From assembly GCA_035635555.1 (NCBI GenBank), contig DASQAT010000046.1:384075-423612 (forward strand): DNA of 39,538 nucleotides, in the 5' to 3' direction. Under the pieces are notes generated by a model that saw only the letters and a program-made list of their open reading frames with translations, ran no database searches and had not been told where the DNA came from. The translations under genes were made by a program, and so were the position numbers. Shown in pieces: positions 506 through 30,130 of this stretch. The stretch comes from Candidatus Dormiibacterota bacterium. GTDB lineage: Bacteria; Acidobacteriota; Polarisedimenticolia; Gp22-AA2. Every line of letters begins with the position of its first letter. Positions within the stretch are counted from its first letter, which is position 1.

Positions 506-939
506 CCCAGATCCTGGTGGTGGACGACGAGCTCGCCATCCGCGAAGTGCTGATCGAGTTCCTGTCGGAGCACGGCTACGAGGCCGAAGGAGCCGAAGAC
601 GGTCAGGAGGCGCTCGAGATGGCGAAGCGTCTCAAGCCCCAGGTCATCCTGCTGGACATCGCCATGCCGGGGATGAACGGCATCGAAACGCTCAAGCGCC
701 TCCGCCAGGCGTCGATCGGGGCGGCCGTCATCATGATCAGCGGACACGCCGATCAGGATCAGGCCCTCATGGCCCTCGATCTGGGCGCCTTCGACTTCAT
801 CCAGAAGCCGCTCGACTTCCGCTATCTCGAGCGGACTCTCCTCGCCAAGATCGTGACCCTCGAGCCGCACGACGAGGGTCGCACGTCCAAGGAGGCCGAT
901 GGTGAGCGCAGACGGAACACCGGACAGAGGAACCGCTAA
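502..939 (+). CDS. Single-domain response regulator (CheY/Spo0F-like)
   Basis: A receiver domain fills residues 2-118: acidic pair D8/D9, phospho-acceptor D52 in LLDIAMPG, S80 at the switch position and K102 in the QKP motif. All residues needed for phosphorylation are present. The last 25 residues are polar, with no DNA-binding domain, so it probably acts by protein contact or passes phosphate on. The start overlaps the previous stop (ATGA), and its 3' end overlaps the next gene by 41 bases. No histidine kinase is coded beside it in this operon; CheA in the neighbouring cluster is a possible but unproven partner. Confidence 0.9.
   Translation: MTQILVVDDELAIREVLIEFLSEHGYEAEGAEDGQEALEMAKRLKPQVILLDIAMPGMNGIETLKRLRQASIGAAVIMISGHADQDQALMALDLGAFDFIQKPLDFRYLERTLLAKIVTLEPHDEGRTSKEADGERRRNTGQRNR
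889..895 (+). promoter_or_regulatory. Ribosome binding site for the GspE/HD-GYP fusion
   Basis: AAGGAGG lies three bases before ATG 899 and six before the adjacent GTG 902. It supports a start inside the end of the response regulator gene and therefore the 41-base overlap. Confidence 0.6.
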
Positions 940-3250
940 AGGGTCCCTGCCCCTGCCCGTCCTTCTCGCGGACCGTCAGGACGTGGCGTTCGTGGCGACC
1001 CCGCGGGGAATCGAGAGCCTGCGCATTCCGCGCCGCTACTGGGGTGCGCAGGTCGGCGTCGTGGCGATCCCCGTCAGCGACGAAGAGGTGCGTGGCGCCG
1101 AGCTGCAACCGCCGTCCGACGCCGGCGCCTGGCCGCGCGTCGTCACGCGGTCGGACCTGCTGGCGCCGGCCCTGTCGCGTCTCATGGGAGGAGATCACAC
1201 CGAGCTGAGCCTGCGGCCGGGTCGCGACGGCCTGAGGGCGACGCTCCTCACCGCAGCCGACGAGGAGCAGCCGTATCCCGTGGCCCCCAAAGACGCGCTC
1301 GGGTTTCTCGCGGCGGTGTTCCAGCATGCGCCACGCGGCGTCGTCAAGACCGCCGGTGGGCGCGCGCGCCGGGTCCTGCTGAGCGTGCGACCGGCGGCAA
1401 GGCCGAACGAGTACCGCGTGCGCATCTCCGGAGTCGTCGAGACGGCCCCACCCGCCACCCTGAACGACATCGGCCTCTCGCCCGCCGTCCTGGAGCTGCT
1501 CCTGGAGAGCCTGGAGCGGCGCGCCGGCATCCTCCTGGTCTCGGGCGGACCGGCAACCGGGCGTACGACGACGCTGGATCTGCTGGCGCGCACGCTGTCG
1601 TCGCGCGGACGCACGGGCGGTCGGATCGGTCCGCGCCTCCGGCCGGCCCTTCCCGAACTTCCCTGGCTCGCCGAGACGCCGGGTGATTGGCCGTTCCCCG
1701 AAAGCCTCATGGCCTCCGCCCCGGAGTTCATCCTGGTGGAGCACCTCGAGGGGACGTCCGATCTGGTCCTGGCCGCCCGGCTGGCATCGACCGGCTGTCT
1801 CGTCCTGGCTGGCGCCCCCGCGGCCGATCCGGAGGCCCTGGCGAGGAGCGTCGCACGCGGGCTGGCGGACGGATCGGCCCCCGCGGTTCCCGTCGCCGTC
1901 CTGGGACAGACGATCGTGCGCACACCCTGCCGCGGCTGCCTGCACTGGAGCACGATTCCCGCGGAGCAGGCGCGGCGACTCGGCTTCCATCGCCGTGATG
2001 TGGACGAGTTCGAACGCAAGGGTGGTCTGCCGATCGCACGGGGCGAGGGCTGCGCCGACTGCTCCCGCACCGGCAGCGCCGGCCTCACCGGCGTGCAGGA
2101 GTTCGTCGATCCCGAGGCGGGAACACTGTCGCTTCCGCGTTTGCGGGAGGAAGGCTGGCGCCGGGTGGCGCAGGGCCAGGTCTCGGTCGAGGACGTCATG
2201 ACCCTGCCCGGTGCCCAGCGACCGATGCGGACCCTGAGAGAGATCCAAGTGCACGCCGGGGCGGGACCCGCGTCGACCGAAGATGGACCCCGGGTGCCCG
2301 GCGAGACCCCGCGCGCCGCGGCTTCACGCGACACCTCATCGCGTGGTGTCGGCGGCACGGCCGCCCCGGAGACACCCTCCGAGCCGGCTCTCGCCGAGGC
2401 GCAGGCACTGGCCCAGATTCTCAAGGACAGCCGCTCCGCGCGCCCGGCCGACGGAAAACGCGTCCTGGCGCTCGCCCAGGTGATCGCTGCGCGCTCGGCC
2501 AGGGACGCGCCGCTCTCGTCTCTCCTGGCGCCGGCAGGCGGCTTCCAGCTGGCCAGCCATTCCGTGAACTCCGGGTTCATCGCGTCGCGCATCTGGGCGT
2601 CGCTTGGCAACGCGGAGGACACACGCCTGGTCCTCCTGGCCCTGCTCCACGACGCCGGAATGGTGAAGGCCGGGACCGATCCCGAAGCCGAGATGCCGGC
2701 GGTTTCCTCCGAGGAGTCGGTCGATCCGACCGGTTCCCGCCTCGAGCCTGGAGCGGTCCTGCGATCGCTTGGTGCCGAGGCAGCGGGGATGACGGAGGCC
2801 GTTCGATCGGTGCACCACCTGATCCGATTCGATCTCCCCAGTGTCGAGGAGCGCGCCGGCGCGGACCAGCGCTCCCAGGTGGTGGCGCTCGCCTGCCTGG
2901 TGGAGCTGCACCGCCACGGGGTGGGGAACGGGCTTCCGATCGACCTGCATGACGTGACGTCCCTCGTCATGGAGCAGCACGGGCGCCGCTTCAGCCCCAC
3001 GCTGTTCCGCGCCCTCCTGAAGGCGGTTCCCATCTTCCCCATCGGCTGCCTGGTCGAGCTGTCCAGCGGTGACCTGGCCCGCGTCGTGTCGTTGAACGAG
3101 GACAACCACTTCCGGCCGCGGGTAGAAATCACCGCCTCCGTTTCGGGTGAGGGGCAGGGAGACCGCCGCGTGATCGACCTGGCGCGCGCGCCGTTTCTGC
3201 ACATCCGCCAGCGCGCCTCAGGGACGACGGCGGAGCGGGTGGCGGTGTGA
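899..3250 (+). CDS. Degenerate GspE/PilB-type ATPase fused to degenerate HD-GYP domain
   Basis: 783 residues. The centre (about 185-445) follows the type II secretion/type IV pilus ATPase fold: P-loop GGPATGRTTT (216-225), a Walker-B-like strand ending VEHLEG (280-285), and a four-cysteine zinc site C344/C347/C385/C388 as in GspE and PilB. The invariant Walker A lysine is arginine (R222), and the GspE His-box segment reads LVLAGAPAAD, without its histidine. A poorly conserved linker (about 450-500) leads to an HD-GYP-like domain (545-745) with H554, H584-D585 and H639-H640 but no GYP triad; its end (FPIGCLVELSSGD) is typical of HD-GYP proteins. I infer a regulatory or scaffolding protein, perhaps nucleotide-sensing, for EPS export rather than a pilus motor. 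No other pilus gene is in the window. Confidence 0.8.
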   Translation: MVSADGTPDRGTAKGSLPLPVLLADRQDVAFVATPRGIESLRIPRRYWGAQVGVVAIPVSDEEVRGAELQPPSDAGAWPRVVTRSDLLAPALSRLMGGDHTELSLRPGRDGLRATLLTAADEEQPYPVAPKDALGFLAAVFQHAPRGVVKTAGGRARRVLLSVRPAARPNEYRVRISGVVETAPPATLNDIGLSPAVLELLLESLERRAGILLVSGGPATGRTTTLDLLARTLSSRGRTGGRIGPRLRPALPELPWLAETPGDWPFPESLMASAPEFILVEHLEGTSDLVLAARLASTGCLVLAGAPAADPEALARSVARGLADGSAPAVPVAVLGQTIVRTPCRGCLHWSTIPAEQARRLGFHRRDVDEFERKGGLPIARGEGCADCSRTGSAGLTGVQEFVDPEAGTLSLPRLREEGWRRVAQGQVSVEDVMTLPGAQRPMRTLREIQVHAGAGPASTEDGPRVPGETPRAAASRDTSSRGVGGTAAPETPSEPALAEAQALAQILKDSRSARPADGKRVLALAQVIAARSARDAPLSSLLAPAGGFQLASHSVNSGFIASRIWASLGNAEDTRLVLLALLHDAGMVKAGTDPEAEMPAVSSEESVDPTGSRLEPGAVLRSLGAEAAGMTEAVRSVHHLIRFDLPSVEERAGADQRSQVVALACLVELHRHGVGNGLPIDLHDVTSLVMEQHGRRFSPTLFRALLKAVPIFPIGCLVELSSGDLARVVSLNEDNHFRPRVEITASVSGEGQGDRRVIDLARAPFLHIRQRASGTTAERVAV

Positions 3251-4647
3251 GCGTGGAACGGGACGCTCTTCCGGTTCTCGAGGCCCTCCTTTCGGACGGC
3301 CACGGAATGCTCGTCCCGGTTCGCGGCCGGAGCATGCGCCCGGCGCTCGTCGAGGGGGATGTCGCGGTGGTCGCGCCGTTCCTCGGTCTCCCCCGCCCGG
3401 GACAGCTCGTCCTGGCGCGCTCTGCCGGAAGCGTACTCGTCCTGCACCGCCTGATCGACGTCGAAATGGGAACAGGCCGACGGATCTACAGGCTGCAGGG
3501 GGATGCGGAGAGCGCCCCCGACACGGGCGTCCTGCGCGAGGATCTGCTCGGAAGGGTGATCGCCGTCGAGCGCGACGGCCGCCGCATGCCCATCGACGAC
3601 CCCTCATTCGATACCCCCGCTGCCGCAAGCCGGCGCGCCCTTGTCCGGCGGGGACGCCGGGTCCTGCGCGCGGTGTCGCTGGTCGTGGCGGTCCTGCTGT
3701 GCGCCCTGGGAGTCGTGGCCGCGCAGGAAGGGACCGCCGCCCCGGCGCCGCAGGAGCAGATGATCGCGCCCGCCGCCGATTACCGCTTCGGTCCGGGAGA
3801 CGTGCTCAGCCTGCGGGTCTGGAACGGCCAGAAGATCGACGAGCTGAAGCTGACGGTGCAGACCGACGGCGAGGCGTTCCTGCCGGTCATGGGAATCGGG
3901 TCCATGCAGGTGGCGGGCCGGACGATCGTCGATCTCAAGAAGGACCTCGAGGCGCGCTTCCACACCATCTACAAGGAGACCCACATCGAGCTCTTGATCA
4001 CCAAGTACGCCGGGCATCGCGTCAGCCTGATGGGGGAGGTGAAGACCACCGCGCGGGCCGAGAGCGGCCCCGGGAACTGGGCCCTGGAGGGACCGACGCG
4101 GCTGGTGTCGTTCCTGTCGGCGCACGGCGGTCCGGCCCAGGAGGCCGATGTCATGCGGATCCAGTTCATCCGCCCCACCGGCGAGCGCCGGGAGCTGAAC
4201 CTGTTCCGCGCCGTGTTCCAGGGGGAGGAGACCGATGACCCGTGGCTGTCGAACGGCGATCTGATCTTCATCCCGTCGCTCTCCATGGGCAACCGCAAGG
4301 TGTTCGTCCTGGGTGAGGTCAACCAGCCGGGGGTGGTCAACATCATCGACAAGATGGGCCTGGTCGAGGCGATCTCGCGGGCGGGGGGCTTCACCCAGAA
4401 GGGATACCTCAAGGGGGTGGTCGTTCTGAAGCGGGGCCCGGACGGCCACGCCGCGATCACCCTCGCCAACTTCAAGGAGATGTTCAAGGAAGCGGACATG
4501 AAGGCGGACGTGGCGCTGCAGCCGGGCGACATCGTGTTCGTGCCGCGGCGCGCCATAGTGACCCTGCAGGAGGTGATGTCGATCATCGCGCCGGCGCTCG
4601 GCATCATCGAGTCGATCTACATCATCGACAATTTCAGGAAGAACTGA
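3247..4647 (+). CDS. SipW-like peptidase domain fused to Wza-type polysaccharide export protein
   Basis: 466 residues. Residues 15-112 resemble S26B (SipW/Sec11-type) signal peptidases: serine in GRSMRP (S29), VLHRLI with H67 at the general-base position, and a GD...D stretch (D86, D92). A hydrophobic helix (140-158) ends in a signal-peptide-like AAQ. It is followed by a polysaccharide export domain (177-260, starting YRFGPGDVLSLRVW), two SLBB-type domains (about 265-345 and 352-435) and a C-terminal amphipathic helix (438-462) like the outer-membrane helix of Wza. The frame is open throughout, so the two parts form one polypeptide unless an internal start near the membrane helix is used. A GTGA overlap couples it to the previous gene. 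It should form the outer-membrane EPS channel; the peptidase role is unknown. Confidence 0.85.
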   Translation: MSVERDALPVLEALLSDGHGMLVPVRGRSMRPALVEGDVAVVAPFLGLPRPGQLVLARSAGSVLVLHRLIDVEMGTGRRIYRLQGDAESAPDTGVLREDLLGRVIAVERDGRRMPIDDPSFDTPAAASRRALVRRGRRVLRAVSLVVAVLLCALGVVAAQEGTAAPAPQEQMIAPAADYRFGPGDVLSLRVWNGQKIDELKLTVQTDGEAFLPVMGIGSMQVAGRTIVDLKKDLEARFHTIYKETHIELLITKYAGHRVSLMGEVKTTARAESGPGNWALEGPTRLVSFLSAHGGPAQEADVMRIQFIRPTGERRELNLFRAVFQGEETDDPWLSNGDLIFIPSLSMGNRKVFVLGEVNQPGVVNIIDKMGLVEAISRAGGFTQKGYLKGVVVLKRGPDGHAAITLANFKEMFKEADMKADVALQPGDIVFVPRRAIVTLQEVMSIIAPALGIIESIYIIDNFRKN

Positions 4648-4648
4648 C

Positions 4649-6838
4649 ATGAGCGCCCAGTACGATCTCAACCTTCAGGACTATCTGCGGATCCTGCGCC
4701 GTCGATGGAAGATCGTGGCCGGGTGCTGCCTGGCGCTGGGGCTCCTGACCCTGCTCCTGACGCCACGCGCCGGGTCCGTCTACGAAGCGACGGCGCGCGT
4801 CAAGTGGAGCCGCACGGACAGCGTCACGGGTCTGTTCCTGGAGGCCTTCACCTGGAGCCCCGGGGACGACCTCGCCACGCAGGCGCAGATCATCACCAGC
4901 AGGCCCGTGGCCCTGAAGGCGGCGCAGCGTCTCGGGCGCATCCCGGTCTCCACCACCATCGAGAACGTCCTGGCCGACAAGACGTTATCGGCGGCTCTCG
5001 ATGCCATGCTGGCCAGCTACACGGCCAAGCCGATCGACAACACCAGCCTCATCGAGATCAGGAGCGCCTGCCCTGGACCGGACGAGGCGGTGCAGCTCGT
5101 GAACGCGGTCATGCAGGAATACATCATCGGGCACACGTTCGAGCGCAACCGCCAGGCGATCGAGGCGCGCGAGTTCGTCGAGAGACAGGTCGCCGAAGTC
5201 AGCGCGAAGCTCCGGGCCGCCGAGGAACAGCTCACCCGCTTCAAGGAAGCCAACGTGGGAGCGAGCATGCCCGACGCGAAGGAGATCCAGTACTTCCAGG
5301 ACGAGGCCGCGCACACCGAGGCGCGGCTGGTCGCACTGGAGCACCTGAGCGACCTGCTCGCCCACCCCGGAGATCCGGGCTCTTCGCCCGAACTGCTCCT
5401 GGTCGACCTGCCGGAGGAGGGGCTGGGCGGGTTGCGGCAGGAGCTCGCGAGACTCGAGGACAGCAAGCGACAGCTCCTCGCGTTCATGAAGGACGATGCC
5501 CCCGAAATCCGGTCCATCAAGGACCAGATCGACGTGCTCACCGGCCGGCTGCGGCGCGAGACGACCACCGCCCTCGACCTGATGCGCGGCCGCAAGCGGG
5601 AGCTCACCTCGAAGCTGGCCCGCTTCCCGCGCGCCGAGCAGACGCTGCTCGAGCTGCAGCGCCAGGTCCAGGTGAACGCCGAAGCCTACGAGATGCTGAT
5701 GCGCAAGCATCAGGAGGCCCTGATCAAGGAGGCCGACAAGGTGCAGGAGCTGAGCGTCGTCGAGGAGGCGACGGCCGCCGTCCCGAGACACGCGCCGGGG
5801 AGGCTCCTGCGATCGCTGGTCGGTCTCATCGTCGGTCTGCTCCTCGGGCTGGTGGCGGCCTTCCTGGCGGAGACTCTCGACACCTCGATCGGCAGCATCG
5901 AGGACGTGGAGCAGTACCTCGGCCTGTCGGTGATCGGCGTCGTGCCGCACATCGACCCCGACGCCACGCGACGCGACATCCTGCAGCGCAACCCGGCCCT
6001 GGCCTCCGACCCGAACCTGGAGGGTCTCGGCGCCCTGGTGACGCAGTTCGCGCCGCAGTCGCCCGCGGCCGAGGCCTTCCGCTCGCTGCGCACCAACATC
6101 GAGTTCTCCCGGATCGGCAAGGCGGGCCGCACGTTCCTGTTCACCTCCGCCTCCCCCAGCGAAGGCAAATCCACGACCGTCGCCAACCTGGGAGTCGCGA
6201 TGGCCCAGATGGGAATGAAGACGCTGGTGTGGGATTGCGATTTGAGAAACCCCTCGCTCAGCCGCCTGTTCGGCGTCCCGCGCGAGCCCGGGTTCACGCA
6301 CGTCGTGCTGGGCATGAACCGGCTGGACGACGTCCTGCACCGATTCTCGGAGGTGTTTCTCGGGCGCGTCGACATGCGCTCGATGCTCACCTCCGCGGGT
6401 CTTGAGAATCTCCGGATCCTCACCGCGGGGGCGCTGCCGCCGAACCCCTCCGAGCTCCTGGCGTCTCCCCTGTTCTCCGATTTCATCGTCGAAGTGGCCT
6501 CGAGGTTCGACGTCATCCTCATCGACTCGCCGCCGATTCTCCCCGTGACCGACGCCGTGGTCCTGTCGACGCGTGTGGACGGCGTGATCCTGGTCTACCA
6601 GCTCGGGCGGATCGGCCGGGCCGTCCTGAAGAGGGCCAAGACGCATCTCGACAACGTGCATGCCGCCATCCGCGGGATCGTGCTGAACGATGTCAAGGCG
6701 GAGGTCAGCACCTACACCGCGGAGATGCAGTACATCTACCAGCGCTACGACAAACAGCCGCAGGATGGAGGGGACACGGCGCCCCGCCAGGCTCCCGCTG
6801 GCCGCCCCGAGGCCAAGGCGGCCGGCGGCGAACGGTAG
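4649..6838 (+). CDS. Wzc-type chain-length regulator and tyrosine autokinase (BY-kinase)
   Basis: 729 residues. Wzz-type domain with TM1 (21-38), a long periplasmic coiled coil (about 165-375) and TM2 (about 388-408). The cytoplasmic BY-kinase domain has Walker A SASPSEGKST (500-509), Walker A' LVWDCD (526-531) and Walker B VILID (622-626). A C-terminal tyrosine cluster (Y689, Y695, Y697, Y700) is the expected autophosphorylation site. It controls polymer length and pairs with the Wza-type channel made one base upstream. All catalytic motifs look intact, so this is an active kinase by sequence. No separate low-molecular-weight tyrosine phosphatase is in the window. Confidence 0.93.
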   Translation: MSAQYDLNLQDYLRILRRRWKIVAGCCLALGLLTLLLTPRAGSVYEATARVKWSRTDSVTGLFLEAFTWSPGDDLATQAQIITSRPVALKAAQRLGRIPVSTTIENVLADKTLSAALDAMLASYTAKPIDNTSLIEIRSACPGPDEAVQLVNAVMQEYIIGHTFERNRQAIEAREFVERQVAEVSAKLRAAEEQLTRFKEANVGASMPDAKEIQYFQDEAAHTEARLVALEHLSDLLAHPGDPGSSPELLLVDLPEEGLGGLRQELARLEDSKRQLLAFMKDDAPEIRSIKDQIDVLTGRLRRETTTALDLMRGRKRELTSKLARFPRAEQTLLELQRQVQVNAEAYEMLMRKHQEALIKEADKVQELSVVEEATAAVPRHAPGRLLRSLVGLIVGLLLGLVAAFLAETLDTSIGSIEDVEQYLGLSVIGVVPHIDPDATRRDILQRNPALASDPNLEGLGALVTQFAPQSPAAEAFRSLRTNIEFSRIGKAGRTFLFTSASPSEGKSTTVANLGVAMAQMGMKTLVWDCDLRNPSLSRLFGVPREPGFTHVVLGMNRLDDVLHRFSEVFLGRVDMRSMLTSAGLENLRILTAGALPPNPSELLASPLFSDFIVEVASRFDVILIDSPPILPVTDAVVLSTRVDGVILVYQLGRIGRAVLKRAKTHLDNVHAAIRGIVLNDVKAEVSTYTAEMQYIYQRYDKQPQDGGDTAPRQAPAGRPEAKAAGGER

Positions 6839-6842
6839 CATC

Positions 6843-8225
6843 GTGTCCGCCGCGCCCGGCGCCGTCGGCGCCCTCCCGGCCCGGAAGGCCGCGCTCCTCT
6901 CAGGTCTCCTGGGATCGCTTCTCGTCCTGTCGCTCTGGGTGACCCGCGCTCCCCTCGAGGTGCCGGTCGTCGCGACCGTGGCCGCCGTGCTGTTTCTGGC
7001 GACCCTCCTGCACGCGGAGGCCGGGCTGGTCATCCTCATCGCGTCGATGCTCCTGTCGCCGGAGCTCCCTCTCGGGGGAGCCGGCGGCGGCGGTCTGGAG
7101 GGAAGTCGTTCGGTCATCCTGAGGACCGAGGACCTGGTCCTGCTCCTCGTGGGCTTCGCGTGGGTGGCGCGCATGGCGATCCACAAGGACCTCGGGGCGA
7201 TTCGGCGGACGCGCCTGAACGTCTGCATCTTCGCCTTCTCGGCCTGCTGCCTGCTCTCGACGCTCATCGGTATCGAGACCGGGCGCGTGCGACCTCTCCT
7301 GGGCCTGTGCTTCGTGGCGAAATACGTCGAGTACTTCATCATCTTCTTCATCACCGTGAATTACGTCCGCACGGGGGCGCAGCTCCGCCGGCTTCTCCTG
7401 GCCGTCCTCGTCACCGCGGCGCTGATCGCCGCCTACGCCTGGTGGCAGATCCCCTCGGGGGTCCGCCCGTCGGCCCCCTTCGAAGGACCCGAGGGAGAAC
7501 CCAACACACTGGGCGGCTACCTGGTGCTGGTCTTCAGCGTCGCCTGCGCGCTGGCCCTCACTCTGCCCGGGGAGATGCGCCGTCTCAGGCGCGCCTCCGC
7601 CCTGCTCTCCCTGTTCGTGATCCCGCCTCTCCTGGCGACCCTGTCGCGCAGCTCCTGGATCGGACTGTCGGCGTCGCTTTTCATCCTGGTGTTCCTGAGC
7701 CCGAAGAGACGCACCCTCATCGGCGCCGTCATCGTGGCCTCGACCCTCCTGTTCTTCGTGCATCCGAAGAGCATCGAAGATCGTGTCCTGTACACATTCC
7801 AGGGCGAGGACCCGTCGGCTCAGGCCGGACGGTTGAAGCTCGATCCGTCCTCATCGGCCCGTCTGTCGTCCTGGGGCGACGCGCTGCGAGGCTTCGTGCA
7901 GCACCCGCTGGCCGGGTGGGGCATCACCGGCTACGGATTTCTCGACGCTCAGTATTTCCGCATCCTGGTGGAGCTGGGCGCCCTGGGCCTGCTGGCCTTC
8001 TTCCTCCTTGTCGGCTCGGCCGCCACGAGCTTCCACCGCGCCTACCTGACTCTTCCCGATCCCCTGCACCGCGCCCTCGGACTGGGGATGACCGCGGGAC
8101 TCGCGGGGCTCCTCGGGCATTCGGTCGGGACCAACACGTTCATGCTGATCCGGATCATGGAGCCGTTCTGGCTCTTGACGGGGCTGGTCGTCGCCTCGCT
8201 CTCCTTCGCGTCGGAGACCCCGTGA
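6843..8225 (+). CDS. O-antigen ligase/polymerase (Wzy/WaaL-like) membrane protein
   Basis: 460 residues with about 11 hydrophobic segments and a large extracytoplasmic loop (about 205-365). The segment RLSSWGDALRGFVQHPLAGWG, followed by an invariant-looking ILVELGALGLL helix, is the hallmark of the Wzy_C family. It should polymerise or ligate undecaprenyl-linked repeat units in the periplasm. The GTG start at 6843, four bases after the BY-kinase stop, is preferred: a longer open frame exists upstream but would overlap the Wzc tyrosine tail by about 150 bases. It ends in a GTGA overlap with the flippase. Ligase and polymerase cannot be told apart from sequence; a Wzy role fits the Wzx/Wza/Wzc set. 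Confidence 0.85.
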   Translation: MSAAPGAVGALPARKAALLSGLLGSLLVLSLWVTRAPLEVPVVATVAAVLFLATLLHAEAGLVILIASMLLSPELPLGGAGGGGLEGSRSVILRTEDLVLLLVGFAWVARMAIHKDLGAIRRTRLNVCIFAFSACCLLSTLIGIETGRVRPLLGLCFVAKYVEYFIIFFITVNYVRTGAQLRRLLLAVLVTAALIAAYAWWQIPSGVRPSAPFEGPEGEPNTLGGYLVLVFSVACALALTLPGEMRRLRRASALLSLFVIPPLLATLSRSSWIGLSASLFILVFLSPKRRTLIGAVIVASTLLFFVHPKSIEDRVLYTFQGEDPSAQAGRLKLDPSSSARLSSWGDALRGFVQHPLAGWGITGYGFLDAQYFRILVELGALGLLAFFLLVGSAATSFHRAYLTLPDPLHRALGLGMTAGLAGLLGHSVGTNTFMLIRIMEPFWLLTGLVVASLSFASETP

Positions 8226-22845: not shown

Positions 22846-24867
22846 ATGTGCGGCCTGGCGGGCATCCTCAGTCTGTCCGGCGCCCCCGTGCGGCACACGG
22901 CGCTGCGCGCCATGACCGAGACGCTCCGTCATCGCGGCCCGGACGAGGGGGCAGTCATCCTGATTGCCGACCGGAGCGACCCGTCGGGAACCCCCGGGCG
23001 CGAGAGGCGCGGCGAAGCGCCGGTCCCCACGAGACTCGGCCTCGGCCACCGGCGCCTCAGGGTGATCGATCTGAGCGGCCGCGCCGCGCAGCCGATGCGC
23101 TCGCAGTCGGGCGCCTGGCTCGTCTACAACGGCGAAATCTACAACGCGTACGAGTTGCGCAGCGAGCTCGAAGCGCGCGGCGCGCGCTTCCGCTCGCACA
23201 GCGATACGGAGGTCGTGCTCGAGGCGCTCGACGCCTGGGGTCTGGAGGCCCTGCCGCGATTCAACGGGATGTTCGCCCTCGCCTACTGGGACCCGCGTGG
23301 GCGACGCCTGATCCTGGCGCGCGATCGTTTCGGCGAGAAGCCCCTGTACTACGCGATCGCCGCGGGGCTCCTGATGTTCGCGTCCGAGCTGGGGGCGCTG
23401 GCTCGAAACGGCGACGTACCGCTCGAGATCGATCCCGAGGCGCTCGAGCTCTATCTCACATTCGGATTCGTCCCGGCCCCCTGGTCCATCTACAGGGGCG
23501 TGCGCAAGCTGCCGCACGCCTCGTACCTCGAGGTGCTGCCGGACGAGGCGCCCAGGGTGGGGCGCTATTATCGGCTGGAGGATCACCGTGGCTCCCGCGT
23601 CCCCGACCATCCGGAGGACGCGGTTCGCGCCACCCTTCTGGAGTCCGTTCGGCGGCGTCTGGAGGCCGACGTGCCGCTCGGCGCCTTCCTGTCCGGAGGA
23701 CTCGATTCGACCGCCGTCGTCGCCTGCATGCGCCTGTCGCGCGGCGCGCCGCCTCTCACCTACTCGATGGGGATCCCGGATCTGCCTTACTTCGACGAAT
23801 CGAGCCGGGCCCGCAGGACCGCCGGAATCTTCTCGACGCTGCATCACGAGGTGCGGGTCGATGCGGCGGCGTTGCGGGCGGAGATCCCGTTCGTGCTCGG
23901 GCGGCTCGACGAGCCGTTCGCCGACTCCTCGGCCCTCGCCTCCTCGATCATCTCCCGGGCCGCGCGTCGCGACCTGACCGTGGCCCTCTCGGGTGACGGG
24001 GGGGACGAGCTGTTCGGCGGATACCGCATGTTCCGCGGCCTGGCGGCTCACAGACTCCTGCGGCGCCTGCCGCCGCGCGCCGCAGCGGCCCTGGCGGCGC
24101 TCCTGTCCCCGCTGCCGGCGCGCCAGGGGGGCGGCACGCCCGGCGTCGTGCGGCAGGCGAGGCGGCTCCTCGAGGGGGCGACGACCGATCTGGCCGCCGC
24201 CCACACCGCCTGGATGTCGGTGTGCGGACGGGGGGCCCGCCGGGCGCTCCGGCCGGCGGTTCCGGACGAGGACCTCGGGGTGTCGCTCCTGGAGGAGCGC
24301 TACCGGAGGTTCGGCGGCGGGCTGGACGCCGCGCTCGCCGTCGAGGTCGACCTGCCCCTGCCCGACGACATGCTGGCCAAGGTGGACCGCACGAGCATGG
24401 CCCACGCTCTGGAGGTCCGGGCACCCTTCCTCGATCCCGCGCTCGTGGAGCTGGCGCTGTCGCTCCCCTCACGGACCCACTTCGGTCTTTTCTCCGGCAA
24501 GCGTCTCCTGCGGCGGGCGATCCGGGACCTGGTTCCGCCCCACGTCCTGCGGGCCCCCAAGCGTGGCTTCGAGGTGCCCGTTGGTGACTGGCTTTCGGGG
24601 CCTCTGCAGCCGCTGTTCAGCGAGATCGTGTCACCCCGCGCGCTCCACGAACTCCCGGGCCTCGATCCCGGCGTCCCCCGGGCCTGGCTCGACGAGCATT
24701 GCGCGCGGGCCCGCGACCACGGGCGGGCCCTCTGGAGCCTGTTCGCGCTCTGCTACTGGATGCAGGGACCCCGCCGCGCGCACTCCGGGGGAGCACGCGA
24801 AGCGGTGCGTCAGGAGAGGGGATGCTCGAGCAGCGCGGCGACCGTCTTGAGCAGCACGGAAGGCTGA
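22846..24867 (+). CDS. asnB: AsnB-type glutamine-dependent amidotransferase (asparagine synthetase family)
   Basis: 673 residues. Cys2 is the Ntn nucleophile of the glutaminase domain (about 2-235), which also has YNGEIYN and SHSDTEV. The synthetase domain has the PP-loop FLSGGLDSTAVVA (about 282-294) and a later SGDGGDELFGGYR segment. A charged insertion (about residues 45-62) is unlike E. coli AsnB. Such genes at the end of EPS loci often amidate sugar acids or surface glycans rather than make free asparagine; that role is inferred from position. The gene follows its neighbour with no spacer. Its last 58 bases overlap the convergent cheY-like gene, and the final 30 residues look unconserved. 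Confidence 0.88.
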   Translation: MCGLAGILSLSGAPVRHTALRAMTETLRHRGPDEGAVILIADRSDPSGTPGRERRGEAPVPTRLGLGHRRLRVIDLSGRAAQPMRSQSGAWLVYNGEIYNAYELRSELEARGARFRSHSDTEVVLEALDAWGLEALPRFNGMFALAYWDPRGRRLILARDRFGEKPLYYAIAAGLLMFASELGALARNGDVPLEIDPEALELYLTFGFVPAPWSIYRGVRKLPHASYLEVLPDEAPRVGRYYRLEDHRGSRVPDHPEDAVRATLLESVRRRLEADVPLGAFLSGGLDSTAVVACMRLSRGAPPLTYSMGIPDLPYFDESSRARRTAGIFSTLHHEVRVDAAALRAEIPFVLGRLDEPFADSSALASSIISRAARRDLTVALSGDGGDELFGGYRMFRGLAAHRLLRRLPPRAAAALAALLSPLPARQGGGTPGVVRQARRLLEGATTDLAAAHTAWMSVCGRGARRALRPAVPDEDLGVSLLEERYRRFGGGLDAALAVEVDLPLPDDMLAKVDRTSMAHALEVRAPFLDPALVELALSLPSRTHFGLFSGKRLLRRAIRDLVPPHVLRAPKRGFEVPVGDWLSGPLQPLFSEIVSPRALHELPGLDPGVPRAWLDEHCARARDHGRALWSLFALCYWMQGPRRAHSGGAREAVRQERGCSSSAATVLSSTEG

Positions 24868-25193
24868 ATCGGTTTCGGGACGTACGCGTTGGCTCCGAGC
24901 GCCAGGCCCCGCTTGCGATCCTCCTCCGCCCCTTCCGTGGTCACGATGACGATCGGGAGCGTCTTCGTGCGCGCGTTGGCGCGGATGAGCGTGACCAGCT
25001 TGAGACCATCCATCATCGGCATGTTGATGTCGGTGATGACCAGGTCGACGCGCTCCGTCGTCAGCTTCTTCAGGGCGTCGACGCCGTCCACCGCTTCGAT
25101 GATCCGACAGTCTTTCAACCGCCGAAGGGAGAACGCCAGGAGCTGCCGCATCGTGGGCGAGTCCTCGACGATGAGAAAGGTCGTGGCGCTCAT
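24810..25193 (-). CDS. CheY-like response regulator
   Basis: 127 residues, a receiver domain only: E10/D11 acidic pair, phospho-acceptor D55 in ITDINMPMMDG, T85/T86 switch position and K107 in the PKP motif. All active-site residues are present. It is the last gene of the chemosensory cluster, five bases after the GAF-protein stop, and probably its phosphorylated output or phosphate sink. Its 3' end runs 58 bases into the convergent asnB gene, so the two transcripts must be complementary there. Confidence 0.92.
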   Translation of the reverse strand: MSATTFLIVEDSPTMRQLLAFSLRRLKDCRIIEAVDGVDALKKLTTERVDLVITDINMPMMDGLKLVTLIRANARTKTLPIVIVTTEGAEEDRKRGLALGANAYVPKPIQPSVLLKTVAALLEHPLS

Positions 25194-25198
25194 CGGTG

Positions 25199-26071
25199 TC
25201 AGGTCCCCTGTGGGGAGGGGGCCGTGAGCAGGTCGAGGAATCCCTGCAGCTCGGACAGCTTCTTCTCCGACCTCTGGTAGAGCTTGGAGCTGAACAGGGC
25301 CGTCGCGGCGTGCCCCGCCAGGAGGGTGAACAGCTCGAAGTCCAGCGGCTCGAAGCGGTCCTTCTGCTGCAGAAGGCGGTAGAGCGCCACCAGCCCGATG
25401 ACGCGCGTGCCGATTTTCAGCGGAATGCAGGCGATCGGGTGCGCGATGTCCACGCCGGCCCGTTCCGGGAGGGGATCGGCGTAGTACGACTGACCCTGGA
25501 AGGCGTCCTTGAGGGGTCCATCCTCGGGCCGCACCTTCTCGGGGACGCTCGTGCCCATCCCCTGGCTGAGCTCGCGGCGCAGACGTCCACCCCTCTCGTC
25601 CACCCAGAAGATCGCGAACCCTTCTGCGCCGATGAGGTTGATCAGGATCTCCCGGACCGTGTCGAGGACCTCGGCGAAGTTCAGGGTGGCGTGCAGCTGG
25701 TACGAGGCGACGTACAGGTTCGCCAGGTGGTTGTTCTGCGCTTCGATCTCCTCATAGCGTGCCGCCACGCTGCGGTTCATCGCCTCGACCTGCCGGAAAC
25801 GGGCCAGGAGATCGTCCCGTTCCTTCTCCAGAGTGTGCAGGCGCTCGGTGAGCTCCTTCACCGACTCGGATGGAGAGGAGGAGGTCTTGCCGCCCGGCTG
25901 ATCGAGCTCGCGCTCGAGACCGGCGACCCGAAATCTCAGACGCTCGTTCTCCCGCAGCAACTCCTCGGTGAAGGCGCGGGCCCGGCTGAACATGTTGCGC
26001 AGTTCTTCGCCGCGCGCCGAGAGGTCGTCGCGCTCCCCGCCCCGGGGGCTCCCTTCCCGGCTCCGGTTCAT
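25199..26071 (-). CDS. Coiled-coil plus GAF-domain signalling protein
   Basis: 290 residues from ATG 26071. Residues 15-135 are charged heptad-like coiled coil, including a Ser-rich break. A GAF domain follows (about 138-275: LNFAEVLDTVREILINLIGAEGFAIFWVD, then IACIPLKIGTRVIGLVALY). There is no kinase, cyclase or DNA-binding domain and no membrane segment. It sits inside the chemosensory operon and probably acts as a cytoplasmic sensor or scaffold. The frame stays open 27 codons upstream, but those residues look non-coding. An internal ATG at residue 27 is an alternative start. A promoter-like sequence lies immediately upstream. Confidence 0.75.
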   Translation of the reverse strand: MNRSREGSPRGGERDDLSARGEELRNMFSRARAFTEELLRENERLRFRVAGLERELDQPGGKTSSSPSESVKELTERLHTLEKERDDLLARFRQVEAMNRSVAARYEEIEAQNNHLANLYVASYQLHATLNFAEVLDTVREILINLIGAEGFAIFWVDERGGRLRRELSQGMGTSVPEKVRPEDGPLKDAFQGQSYYADPLPERAGVDIAHPIACIPLKIGTRVIGLVALYRLLQQKDRFEPLDFELFTLLAGHAATALFSSKLYQRSEKKLSELQGFLDLLTAPSPQGT

Positions 26072-26078
26072 CTCCGCG

Positions 26079-26107
26079 AATATAGGTCCCGCGCGAAGCC
26101 GGTGCAA
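26079..26107 (-). promoter_or_regulatory. Possible promoter giving a leaderless GAF-protein mRNA
   Basis: On the minus strand TTGCAC (26107-26102) and TATATT (26084-26079) are 17 bases apart. The -10 hexamer matches 5 of 6 consensus bases; the -35 only 3 of 6. Only seven bases separate the -10 from ATG 26071, so transcription would start at or very near the A of the start codon. Confidence 0.4.
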
Positions 26108-26165
26108 TCCTGTAACCGCTTCGTTGACAGTGAAATGGCGACGAGCCCGCACCGGGCGGGGGGCG

Positions 26166-26771
26166 TCAGCGCCGGCAGCGGCGGGCCATCTCCAGAGCGA
26201 TCTCCGAGCGTGGCAGGACCAGGTCCGCGAGACCGGCCCTTATCGCCTCGCGCGGCATGCCGAACACGGCGGCGGTCTCCTCCGACTCCGCGATGGTCCG
26301 CCCGCGCCGATCCTTGATGGCGCGCAGCCCCTCGACACCATCCCCCCCCATTCCGGTCATGAGGATGCCCAGGGAGCGCGGGCCGAACAGCTCCGCCGCC
26401 GAGACCATCAGGAGGTCCGCGGAGGGGGCGTAGCGCTCCGCCGGCCCCCGCGGCCTGACGTGGAAGACGATTCCGGGGGGAAGGCGGTCGAGCGTGGTCT
26501 GTCGTCCGCCGGCGGCGATGCAGATCGTGCCCGGCAGGAGGCGGTCCCCGTCCTTCGGCTCGGACACCGGCAGGGGGCAGAGCCGGGCGAGACGCTCCGC
26601 GAACAGGGTGGTGAAGCGTCCCGGCATGTGCTGCGCCACGAGGATGGCTGTGGTGGTGCCGCGCGGCAGGCGCGGCAGGATTTCGAGGAGGGCCGGCGGA
26701 CCGCCGGCGGAGCAGCCGATGACGATCAGATCCGCCGGGCGGGCATCCCCCACGTCCTGCGGCGCGCTCAC
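26166..26771 (-). CDS. cheB: Stand-alone CheB methylesterase/deamidase domain
   Basis: 201 residues covering only the CheB catalytic domain. The catalytic triad is complete: S21 in IGCSAGG, H48 in VAQHMPG and D144 in TGMGGDG. The N-terminal receiver domain of classical CheB is absent, so activity cannot be controlled by direct phosphorylation of this protein. It should remove methyl groups from receptor glutamates, but no receptor and no CheR lie in the window. ATGA-type 4-base overlap with the zinc-ribbon receiver gene upstream. A 94-base gap follows before the GAF gene. Confidence 0.88.
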   Translation of the reverse strand: MSAPQDVGDARPADLIVIGCSAGGPPALLEILPRLPRGTTTAILVAQHMPGRFTTLFAERLARLCPLPVSEPKDGDRLLPGTICIAAGGRQTTLDRLPPGIVFHVRPRGPAERYAPSADLLMVSAAELFGPRSLGILMTGMGGDGVEGLRAIKDRRGRTIAESEETAAVFGMPREAIRAGLADLVLPRSEIALEMARRCRR

Positions 26772-27727
26772 GAGGACGATTCGGCGGACGGGCGGGAGAC
26801 CGCGGCGCGCTCCAGGGTGATCTGCTCCTTCAACGCCTCGGCCAGGACCGCCATCCTGTCGGGCATGCCGGGGAAGCGCCGGCCGATGAGGTCCTTGGCC
26901 TGGATCATTTCTTCGCGGAACGCTTCCGAGAAGCGCCGCTCTTGGACGGCGCGTCTGAATTCCTGGGGATGGTAGATCTTGAGATCGGAGACCATGATCC
27001 GCGCCAGACGGTGGATCTCCGAGCGCGGATCGATCGGTTCGTCCGCCCCGTTGGCCGAGAGCACCCCAACCTCTGTCGTGGAGGGGGTTCCCAGGGGGGA
27101 GGGGCCGGAACCCTCCGTCGCACCGGCACGCCTCCCCGCGGCGGCCGGCGCGGCAGCGACGCCCAGGAGAGTCGCGAGACGCGCCCGCAGCTGGGCCGCG
27201 GGGATCACGTCCTCGAAGTAGTCGTCGGCTCCGTAGAGATTCCCCGGGTGCCGCACGAACCGGTCCGACTTGAACACCGACCCCACCAGGGCCACACGTG
27301 TTCTCTTGAGGTCCGGGCTTCCCTTCACACCCTCGCAGACGGCCACGCCCAGGAGTCGCGTCATGTACACGTTGAGCACCATGAGATCGGGATGGTGCGC
27401 CACCGCGAAGCGGAAGGCCGCCTCACCGTCACCGGTGACCTCCACGCGGCACCCCAGGGACTCCAGGGTCCGTCGCACCAGGTCACGGAACTCGCGAGCC
27501 TCGTCCCCCACCAGGACGAGCGGTGAGGTGCGTCCCGCCCGGCCGGCGGTCTGCTGGGGGCGCGCGGCTGCCGGGGAGGCCTGGGCCGGGGGGCCCGGAC
27601 CGCCGGCGTGGATGTTCTCCTCCGTCGCGAAGACGCGGTTGCAGCCCCCGCAGCGGACACGGCGGGGTGCGGTCCCGCCGTCGGGGATCCGGTAGTTCCG
27701 CGCGCAGCCGGGGCAGACGACGATCAT
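26768..27727 (-). CDS. Zinc-ribbon plus pseudo-receiver protein (FrzS-like layout)
   Basis: 319 residues. N-terminal MJ0042-type zinc ribbon with C5, C8, C26 and C29. After a Pro/Ala linker comes a receiver-like domain (68-187) in which the phospho-acceptor position is asparagine (N118 in VLNVYM), while K152 and the acidic D74/E75 remain. A second variable linker leads to a helical C-terminal region (230-310). The asparagine predicts a phosphorylation-independent, protein-binding receiver, as in the pseudo-receiver of Myxococcus FrzS. ATG 27727 overlaps the cheW stop by four bases; the open frame upstream of it lies within cheW and was not used. Confidence 0.8.
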   Translation of the reverse strand: MIVVCPGCARNYRIPDGGTAPRRVRCGGCNRVFATEENIHAGGPGPPAQASPAAARPQQTAGRAGRTSPLVLVGDEAREFRDLVRRTLESLGCRVEVTGDGEAAFRFAVAHHPDLMVLNVYMTRLLGVAVCEGVKGSPDLKRTRVALVGSVFKSDRFVRHPGNLYGADDYFEDVIPAAQLRARLATLLGVAAAPAAAGRRAGATEGSGPSPLGTPSTTEVGVLSANGADEPIDPRSEIHRLARIMVSDLKIYHPQEFRRAVQERRFSEAFREEMIQAKDLIGRRFPGMPDRMAVLAEALKEQITLERAAVSRPSAESSS

Positions 27728-28116
27728 GACATCCCCCGCAGGAGCGCGGCGATGTCCAGGGGGGCGACCTGATTCGAACGGGGCGCGACCCCCGACACCC
27801 GGTCCACCACCAGCCCGAGCCGATCGTCGGCCGACCGGACGACGATGACCTGCGCCGCCTCTCCGGACGGGCGCGGCGGGAGGGCGAGGCACCGGCGCAG
27901 ATCGAGAAGGGTCACCATCTGTCCTCGCACCGGGATGATTCCCTCCACCGCCGGAGCGGTCCCGGGCACCCGTGTCGGTGCACGATGACGCATGATTTCG
28001 ATGACCGTATCGACCCGCACGGCGAACTCGCGCCCTTCGATCGTGAACAGCAGCACGTGATCGCGGGCGCCATCGCCGGGGACGGCCGCATCGCCATCAG
28101 GCGTCGACGTCGGCAT
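27724..28116 (-). CDS. cheW: CheW-like coupling protein
   Basis: 130 residues, a single CheW domain: HVLLFTIEGREFAVRVDTVIEIM, then VEGIIPVRGQMVTLLDLRRCL and LGLVVDRVSGV, all typical. It should couple CheA to receptors in the signalling array. ATG 28116 lies inside the end of cheA (20-base overlap), and the 3' end overlaps the next gene by four bases. The frame stays open further upstream in cheA, but translation of that part has no CheW-like sequence. Confidence 0.9.
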   Translation of the reverse strand: MPTSTPDGDAAVPGDGARDHVLLFTIEGREFAVRVDTVIEIMRHRAPTRVPGTAPAVEGIIPVRGQMVTLLDLRRCLALPPRPSGEAAQVIVVRSADDRLGLVVDRVSGVAPRSNQVAPLDIAALLRGMS

Positions 28117-30130
28117 TCTGGTCTCCGGACATGAGCGTCTCGGGGTCGAGGACGAGAACGGCGGTCGCGTCCCCGAGGTCCGCGGCCCCGGCGACTCCCG
28201 GCAGGTCCCCGAGGAAGCGACCGATCGGCTTGACCACCACCTCCTGGCGGCGGACGAGACCGTCGACGACGATTCCAAACTTCCGCCCTTCGCCGCCGGC
28301 GACGATTGCGTACCGCCCGAGCGTCGCGCGGTCGGTCGCACCTCCCCCGGCGCCGGACAGGAGGCGGTCCAGCCGCAGGAGGGGCAGCTGTCCGTCCTGC
28401 CGCTCGTACAGGAGACCTCCCTCCGACTCACGCACACGTGTGCCATCCAGCCGCAGGTTTTCGCGGATCGAGGCGATCGGGATGGCGAAGCGTTGATCAC
28501 CCGAGCGCACGATGATCGCGGGCACCAGGGACAGACTGATCGGCACCATGACCGTGAACGTCGTCCCGCGTCCTTCGGCCGATCGCACGACGATCGAGCC
28601 CTTGAGCGCTCTGATCGCCCGGCGGACCACGTCCATGCCGACGCCGCGACCGGACACCGTGCTGACGTGGCTGGCGGTGCTGAACGCGGGACGGAAGATC
28701 ATCTCGTGCGCCTCCTCCCGGCTCATCTCGCGATCCGCGGGCCACAAGCCCCGGGCCGCGGCGGCGGCCTCGATCTCCCGGATCGCGATGCCACGCCCGT
28801 CATCGATGACGTCGATGACCACGGACGGGCCGCGCCGGAAGGCGCTCAGGACGAGTTGCCCGCGTCGGGGCTTCCGTCGACGCTCGCGTTCCTCCGGAGA
28901 TTCGATCCCATGATCGATGGCGTTGACCACGAGATGCATCAGGGGCGTGGCGAGGCCATCCATCACCGACTTGTCGATCTCCGTGTCGGCCCCGAGTGTG
29001 TGGAGGTCGATCTCTTTCCCCGACGCCCGTGCGGCCCGCGCCACGGCGCGGCCGACCTTGCGGAACTCCTGATCGAGCGGGACGAGGCGGGCCTCGATGG
29101 CGCCGCGTTGCAGCGCGCGCAGCCGGGCCAGAACGATCCGCAACAGCGGTCCCATCTGGCGCGTGCTGTGGTCGTCGGGATGCGCCTCGCGCACGGCGGC
29201 GATCTCGCGCTCCAGGGAGGCGAGGGCGATCGACAGTGCGTCGACCTGTGACAGGACCCCGTCCAGACGCGCCACCGGGACCCGGAGCGACTGGGTCGCT
29301 CCACGCCGATCCGCGGCGGCCTCCGTCCCCGGAGCGGATCCGTCCGGCGACGCGGCCTCTCCCGTCGCGGCGGACGACGGACCGGAGACGACGCGGCGAT
29401 CCTCCACGATGGTCCGCGGCAGGTCATCGTCCGAGAGAAGTCTCGGGCTGGCCACGAGGAGATCGAAGGCGATCCTCTCGTCCCGTTCCCCGACGACCGG
29501 CAGCGTGCTGATGAGCTCGCCCACTTCGCCCACGCGCCGCGCGACGTTCTGGAGATCCTCCTCCAGGCTCTGCGGGTCGGGGCGAACGCGCACCAGCGCC
29601 AGGTGGAATCCCTGCGACAGGCACTGTCGGAGGCGTCTCTCCTCGTATTCGGTCAGGGAGGCGCGGATCCTCTCCGGCAGGCCGGTCGTCCCCGGACGAT
29701 CGTCCTGCGGGATGATGATTGCGGCGGCGGCGCGCGCCAGACGGTCGGTCAGCGGACCCAGCCCGGAAAACGCCGCGGATCCGGAGCGCAGGTCGCGCAC
29801 GGCACCGAGCAGCGAGTCGAGCGTGTCGTGCAGAAGGTCGAGGATGGCACCGTCGAGTGATCCGCCCAGGCGCAGACGTGTCAGGAGATCTTCGAGCGCA
29901 TGGGTGAGCGACGCGATCTCCGGAAAGCCCAGGAGCCCCGCGAAGCCCTTGAGCGTATGAGCGCCCCGGAACAGGGTGTTGATCAGATCGAGATGCGGTC
30001 GCCCCGCCTCGAAGACGGCCTCCAGATCGCGTACGGCATCGGAGAGCGCCTCGAGGATCTCGTCCGCCTCGGCGACGAACTCGCGCAGGCTGCGCTCCCT
30101 CTCCGGACGGCCGGACCGCTCGTCAGACAT
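28097..30130 (-). CDS. cheA: CheA-type chemotaxis histidine kinase
   Basis: 677 residues. HPt domain (12-115) with phospho-accepting H58 in GAHTLKG. A P2-like small domain (about 155-240) is followed by a Gly/Ala-rich linker, the dimerisation helices (285-350), and the ATPase domain with the N-box NAIDHG (403-408), DDGRGI (443-448) and GRGVGMD (494-500). A CheW-like domain closes it (about 530-677). All kinase motifs are intact. There is no C-terminal receiver, unlike FrzE. It heads the six-gene chemosensory cluster and should phosphorylate the cheY-like protein and perhaps regulators elsewhere, including the one in the EPS operon. Confidence 0.93.
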   Translation of the reverse strand: MSDERSGRPERERSLREFVAEADEILEALSDAVRDLEAVFEAGRPHLDLINTLFRGAHTLKGFAGLLGFPEIASLTHALEDLLTRLRLGGSLDGAILDLLHDTLDSLLGAVRDLRSGSAAFSGLGPLTDRLARAAAAIIIPQDDRPGTTGLPERIRASLTEYEERRLRQCLSQGFHLALVRVRPDPQSLEEDLQNVARRVGEVGELISTLPVVGERDERIAFDLLVASPRLLSDDDLPRTIVEDRRVVSGPSSAATGEAASPDGSAPGTEAAADRRGATQSLRVPVARLDGVLSQVDALSIALASLEREIAAVREAHPDDHSTRQMGPLLRIVLARLRALQRGAIEARLVPLDQEFRKVGRAVARAARASGKEIDLHTLGADTEIDKSVMDGLATPLMHLVVNAIDHGIESPEERERRRKPRRGQLVLSAFRRGPSVVIDVIDDGRGIAIREIEAAAAARGLWPADREMSREEAHEMIFRPAFSTASHVSTVSGRGVGMDVVRRAIRALKGSIVVRSAEGRGTTFTVMVPISLSLVPAIIVRSGDQRFAIPIASIRENLRLDGTRVRESEGGLLYERQDGQLPLLRLDRLLSGAGGGATDRATLGRYAIVAGGEGRKFGIVVDGLVRRQEVVVKPIGRFLGDLPGVAGAADLGDATAVLVLDPETLMSGDQNADVDA

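Follow-up and report, generated by a model that had tools for sequence, protein, structure and literature searches.

HD-GYP domains and secretion ATPases have each been described in combination with the MshEN domain (PMC5013675), and the HD-GYP protein RpfG controls the pilus motors PilT and PilU by protein contacts, independently of GGDEF catalysis (PMC3749722). The active site of PmGH has been dissected by mutagenesis: alanine at H189, H221, D222, H250, H276 or H277 essentially abolishes the activity, alanine at D305 markedly reduces it, and alanine at K225 has an impact similar to that of losing a metal ligand, and a further HD-GYP protein, Bd1817, is described as catalytically inactive (PMC4159591). 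Searches of open-access papers for a fusion of a secretion-type ATPase with an HD-GYP-like domain, or for HD-GYP proteins together with wza or exosortase, turned up no description of such a fusion.

The window, i.e. the whole stretch of 39,538 nucleotides that we analysed, comes from a 4.28 Mb assembly in 59 contigs and contains such a fusion close to its beginning. The sequence-only reading had distinguished an ATPase half and an HD half in one open reading frame, and domain-database searches as well as structure prediction agree with this division. The fusion gene comprises the following features:

899-3250, + strand: predicted pseudo-GspE / degenerate HD-GYP fusion, 783 aa (complete open frame, Pfam, family alignment)
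947-1144, + strand: N-terminal region, residues 17-82, no family assigned (conserved in most family members; no Pfam match)
1145-1450, + strand: GspE/PilB N2-like domain, residues 83-184 (fold match; dN/dS about 0.1 between close relatives)
1454-2200, + strand: RecA-like core and Cys4 zinc region, residues 186-434, catalytic motifs lost
1562-1564, + strand: R222 codon at the Walker A lysine position (invariant in 7 genomes, 4 codons)
1928-2062, + strand: four-Cys site C344, C347, C385, C388 (invariant in the alignment)
2261-2488, + strand: variable linker, residues 455-530 (top dN/dS in most pairs; pLDDT mostly <50)
2504-2938, + strand: degenerate HD-GYP domain, residues 536-680 (Pfam HD, Bd1817 structural match, alignment)
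2966-3223, + strand: C-terminal module FPIG..VELSSGD..RVV...DNHFRPRVEI, residues 690-775 (54/81 columns invariant)

The Pfam search assigned the protein to T2SSE (PF00437; 1.2e-9, curated cut-off passed, best stretch 186-237) and reported a match to HD at the curated cut-off (2.1e-4, residues 552-598). Among the NCBIfam models, those of GspE, PilB and TfpB match residues 269-403 far under their equivalog cut-offs, and the profile of the fusion family finds the solved PilF and GspE over residues 151-435 (about 1e-11 to 1e-16). The model of the N-terminal half (pLDDT 74.9, pTM 0.74), which is biased towards the GspE fold because its alignment includes GspE relatives, matches PilB over residues 83-441 (5tsh_B, Z 24.0, 322 aligned, rmsd 5.4), with PilF and GspE matching the same residues and the PilB/GspE matches ranging over Z 22-24. 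PilF is still the top Foldseek match of a full-length model of modest quality (pLDDT 61) built from the family only. Pfam, the alignment and the fold match bear out the GspE landmarks noticed from the letters, namely the P-loop region and the four-Cys zinc site.

The catalytic motifs of this half are lost. The Walker A motif reads GGPATGRTTTL (family form GGPATGR[TS], not GxxxxGK[ST]) and the His box AGAPAAD vs STLHTND in the paralogues, with the His lost, and the alignment with canonical paralogues and relatives revealed that the Asp-box acids (ITxEDPVEY) and the catalytic Glu of Walker B (GEIRD changed to EHLEG) have disappeared too. The earlier observations of Arg222 in place of the Walker A lysine and of a missing His-box histidine were correct, and to them the Asp-box acids and the Walker B Glu have to be added; the loss of each of these elements is common to all fusion members. 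R222 is invariant in all 7 fusion genomes and is encoded there by four different codons (CGT, CGC, AGG and CGG), which rules out a sequencing error. Also retained throughout the family are the zinc-site cysteines C344, C347, C385 and C388, together with R341, and an acid at E281 (E or D in all members), which ends the Walker B strand one position earlier than the catalytic Glu. From these motifs we infer that the pseudo-GspE half has lost ATP hydrolysis.

Residues 17-82 occupy the place of the GspE N1/MshEN domain. This segment gave no Pfam match to MshEN and no match to a relaxed RLGxxL-type motif, and the presence of MshEN at the N-terminus of the fusion was ruled out for lack of the motif. 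Contig C27 of genome G000 encodes a 743-aa frame with MshEN, a T2SSE ATPase and a C-terminal response-regulator receiver (L045, 976-3204).

The HD half retains part of a metal site. H554, H584, D585, G587 and H639 are invariant in all 7 fusion members, and the HHExxDGxGYP motif with the GYP loop is absent from all of them, in agreement with the initial description of an HD-GYP-like domain that has the HD pair (H584-D585) and no GYP segment. When PmGH residues were mapped onto the fusion via the HD-GYP protein of the same genome, equivalents of H189, H221, D222 and H276 (the last being H639) were found to be kept. The family has no His at the position of H250 and a variable residue at H277 (His, H640, in the window protein itself); D305 is replaced by Cys or Ser, and K225, the Lys of HDxGK, by Met or Leu. 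Among the equivalents of H250, H276, H277 and K225, that of H276 alone is conserved. In structural comparison, the HD part comes closest to Bd1817 (Z 19.0, 206 aligned, rmsd 3.2). The site is more eroded than in the related HD proteins of exopolysaccharide (EPS) loci discussed below, and catalysis by the degenerate HD-GYP half is predicted to be lost.

The fusion was found in 7/8 genomes of the window's family, the remaining genome being 75% complete, and identity to the window protein is 52-78% in the six others. No fusion was detected in the other 33 genomes of the class (41 class genomes, with up to 25 candidates scored per genome), nor any further full-length fusion in a 396-genome sample of the phylum with 2 candidates scored per genome, and a peptide-pattern scan of GTDB genome contigs returned only 4 contigs, all of which match in length contigs of genomes already sampled. 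Among the homologues, none retains the Walker lysine and none lies in a pilus operon: the lysine is missing in 7/7, and 7/7 are located in an EPS operon. The gene is kept by purifying selection, with closest-pair dN/dS values (Nei-Gojobori) of 0.03 for residues 17-82, 0.08 for 83-181, 0.17 for 186-410, 0.29 for the linker, 0.26 for HD and 0.10 for the C-terminal module. In most pairs dN/dS peaks in the linker, and of the folded parts the HD region evolves fastest; values of the wider pairs are rough because dS is high there, and those of G004 for residues 17-82 are not meaningful, as the cut falls inside a duplicated stretch. This duplication, internal and partial (residues about 82-254; fusion gene at L021, 5051-7951), may be real or an assembly artefact.

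The genes surrounding the fusion in the window are those of an EPS operon:

2-505, + strand: C-terminal part of an HprK-like kinase gene (343 aa including upstream DNA; syntenic in 7/7)
502-939, + strand: stand-alone response-regulator receiver, 145 aa (Pfam Response_reg 1.4e-31; syntenic in 6/7)
3247-4647, + strand: S26/S24 peptidase-like domain fused to Wza (Pfam, NCBIfam)
4649-6838, + strand: Wzc-type tyrosine kinase / chain-length determinant (Pfam, NCBIfam, synteny)
6690-8225, + strand: Wzy / O-antigen ligase-like protein (Pfam Wzy_C)

Scored as far as each contig reaches, the order NTP_transf_5, radical SAM, HprK-like kinase, receiver, fusion, S26-Wza, Wzc, Wzy is identical in 7/7 genomes, except that the receiver gene is absent from G006 alone. 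The fusion gene shares 41 bases with the receiver gene upstream of it and 4 bases with the S26-Wza gene downstream; co-transcription and translational coupling of these genes are therefore probable. Further along the window come genes for glycosyltransferases and other EPS functions. Wza and Wzc as neighbours, and the lack of pilus or secretion genes, had been pointed out before; indeed, the Pfam-scanned parts of the window and the 10 kb upstream contain no such genes, and the other T2SSE ATPases of the source genome are encoded on other contigs.

Several further observations concern these loci. The S26/S24 signal-peptidase-like domain (GRSMRP, HRL) is in frame with Wza in the family loci examined, and in one assembly (G005, L022) the frame is broken within the Wza part. 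Upstream of the window (L024, 6590-10580), NTP_transf_5, a radical SAM protein and the HprK-like kinase are encoded in a block that is syntenic with the EPS operon, and relatives of these genes occur near S26, HD or Wza genes in distant Acidobacteriota (L153, L159, L193). A chemosensory-like cluster (24810-30130, - strand) encoding a receiver, GAF, CheB, a zinc-ribbon receiver protein and CheA adjoins the EPS genes of the window, and a GAF-GGDEF diguanylate cyclase gene is found at 35350-37167, about 32 kb from the fusion gene.

HD proteins encoded before wza are found in other Acidobacteriota as well. A single-sequence search identified in G045, a member of another class, a protein that matches the HD half alone, has a TIGR03015-like AAA ATPase (Walker A intact) as its fusion partner and is encoded directly before wza-wzc-wzy; the Wza-type export protein of this locus has an N-terminal FG-GAP repeat region (L035, 4608-6764). 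A survey, for which the query consisted of the HD domain with the C-terminal module (the alignment of the query includes G045), together with an inspection of loci, revealed receiver-HD proteins immediately preceding wza in G127, G242 and G375 and HD proteins in the same position in G319 and G235. The C-terminal module is common to the fusion and to these proteins (G045, G127, G235, G242, G319, G375). From an independent start with Wza, an HD gene was found directly upstream of wza in 5 of the 8 closest non-family genomes; in G277 none was found before the contig end, in G195 the stretch from wza back to the NTP_transf_5 gene upstream contains none, and in G249 the contig ends. TIGR03015-like AAA genes adjoin the HD genes of the EPS-related group in G181, G392, G351, G135 and G340, and in G375 and G235 such a gene is located separately, a short distance upstream of the HD gene. 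Group members at other loci have a PilZ input (G159) or a cNMP-binding input (G277). In the HD tree, the domains of the window's family (f1) group with the EPS-locus HD proteins and are split from canonical HD-GYPs with a support of 0.97, on a very long branch for which the exact nearest neighbour is unsupported. At E 1e-5, the search for a TIGR03015-like AAA was negative in the genomes of family f1; the query gave hits in five control genomes, including the genome from which it had been taken. The P-loop modules of G045 and of family f1 were likely joined to the HD protein independently, since they belong to different P-loop families. An origin of the stand-alone receiver as a split-off receiver of the receiver-HD proteins is unsupported, the nearest receivers among the loci compared being found in other proteins.

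We lean, with some reserve, towards the explanation that the fusion, as a peculiarity of this lineage, regulates the EPS operon or acts as its scaffold without catalysis. Among the alternatives, it seems unlikely that the protein forms a ring that responds to nucleotide and does not hydrolyse it, binding ATP, ADP or some other nucleotide via R222 and E281, oligomerising like GspE/PilB and reporting the nucleotide state to the EPS machinery. The GxxxxGR loop is invariant, the Walker B strand still ends in a conserved acid and the PilB/GspE core fold is retained, and arginine is at times able to support nucleotide binding; however, nothing is left of the Asp-box acids, the catalytic Glu or the His-box His, and the N-terminus has neither an MshEN-like motif nor a Pfam nucleotide-binding match. 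Sensing of the nucleotide state, as proposed in the sequence-only reading, is in fact the part of it that found no support, because the ATP site has been dismantled by the loss of several motifs, MshEN is absent and three HD metal ligands are lost. We give even less credit to the idea that the HD domain has remained active as a metal-dependent phosphohydrolase, acting on some substrate with a reduced metal site: H554, H584, D585 and H639 are invariant in 7/7 members, but of the PmGH ligands, H250, H277 and D305 have no equivalent here or one that is not conserved, and in most pairs no other folded part evolves as fast as the HD region.

A pilus or secretion ATPase that has diverged but still works, placed in the EPS locus by chance, would agree with the T2SSE membership above the Pfam cut-off and with the PilB/GspE fold, yet the ATPase motifs are lost in all members, the EPS synteny holds in 7/7 and pilus/secretion-type ATPases are encoded on other contigs; we regard this explanation as very improbable, an ordinary pilus ATPase being largely ruled out by the motif losses and the EPS synteny. 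The least credible candidate is a decaying pseudogene, for which one could quote the lost catalytic motifs, the fast evolution of the linker and the HD region and the partial duplication in one draft assembly (G004). Against it, the frame is open in seven genomes at 52-78% identity, dN/dS is well <1 in the folded regions and 54/81 C-terminal columns are invariant, so that the selection signature rules it out.

To return to a non-catalytic regulator or scaffold, the C-terminal half would descend from the HD-GYP-like group that is encoded directly upstream of wza-wzc-wzy in several Acidobacteriota, and whose HD domain comes with an input module attached, either a receiver or an ExeA/TIGR03015-type AAA ATPase. 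The window's family has probably swapped this input of a recurring EPS regulator for an N2-RecA-Zn module derived from GspE/PilB, retained as a structural or protein-binding platform without ATP hydrolysis. On the grounds of synteny, a likely mechanism would be that the receiver next to it, or else the HprK-like kinase, changes the state of the fusion, whose HD/C-terminal face would contact an EPS component, e.g. Wzc, to permit or block polymer assembly, the control being exerted through contact between proteins instead of nucleotide turnover. Action through protein contacts is most economical because both catalyses are predicted to be lost and the folded parts are under purifying selection. 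Several points weigh against this account: G006 has no receiver gene, the receiver bears no special similarity to those fused to HD at other EPS loci, the f1 branch of the HD tree is very long and has no supported neighbour, an arginine may at times serve in nucleotide binding, and the Walker B strand retains the acid at E281. The view of a GspE-type ATPase that was put to new use in an EPS operon, with a degenerate HD-GYP domain attached to it, has held, with the operon conserved in 7/7, and gating of polysaccharide export by the fusion is plausible from the synteny; its function is inferred here from the anatomy of the protein and its gene neighbourhood. More tentatively, and with doubts outweighing confidence, it could be a new EPS control protein in which a secretion-motor ATPase and an HD-GYP enzyme have both turned into pseudoenzymes within a single chain and replace the receiver/AAA input of related EPS regulators in the phylum, possibly as a dead ring docking on Wzc or the export complex.

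If true, nature would have supplied a case in which polysaccharide export took over an ATPase of the type II secretion/pilus type and uses it as a pseudoenzyme. The HD-GYP-like genes before wza in several Acidobacteriota, with lineage-dependent input modules and often imperfect active sites, offer a comparative handle on the switching of EPS assembly in a phylum with many members in soil and few in culture.

Compared with the GspE/PilB/PilF (T2SSE) ATPases, the fusion has the same N2 domain, RecA-like core and tetracysteine zinc region with the same fold over residues 83-441, but it lacks the Walker A Lys, the Asp-box acids, the Walker B Glu and the His-box His; moreover, no N1/MshEN was found in it, an HD domain is attached and the gene lies in an EPS operon without pilus or secretion genes. 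The described MshEN-HD-GYP and MshEN-ATPase architectures (PMC5013675) differ from the fusion, which has no MshEN-like motif and combines the ATPase and HD domains in one chain. With HD-GYP proteins and Bd1817 it shares the HD fold, H554, the HD dyad and, of the pair of His that precedes the GYP position, one residue, whereas in contrast to HD-GYP proteins it has neither the GYP segment nor the lysine of HDxGK, and three metal ligands are missing or not conserved. RpfG (PMC3749722) provides a precedent for an HD-GYP protein that acts on pilus motors through contacts. The XrtA/PEP-CTERM-associated ATPase TIGR03015 (ExeA-like AAA) is similar in being a P-loop module fused to or located beside an EPS-locus HD protein, although it belongs to a different P-loop family and keeps the Walker A Lys in G045. 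The EPS-locus HD proteins of other Acidobacteriota differ from the fusion in their input, which is a receiver, a TIGR03015-like AAA ATPase or none identified, and most of them keep a GxGxP-like segment and the D305 equivalent; in common with the fusion, they have wza/wzc immediately downstream, the same C-terminal module and an HD site that is often imperfect.
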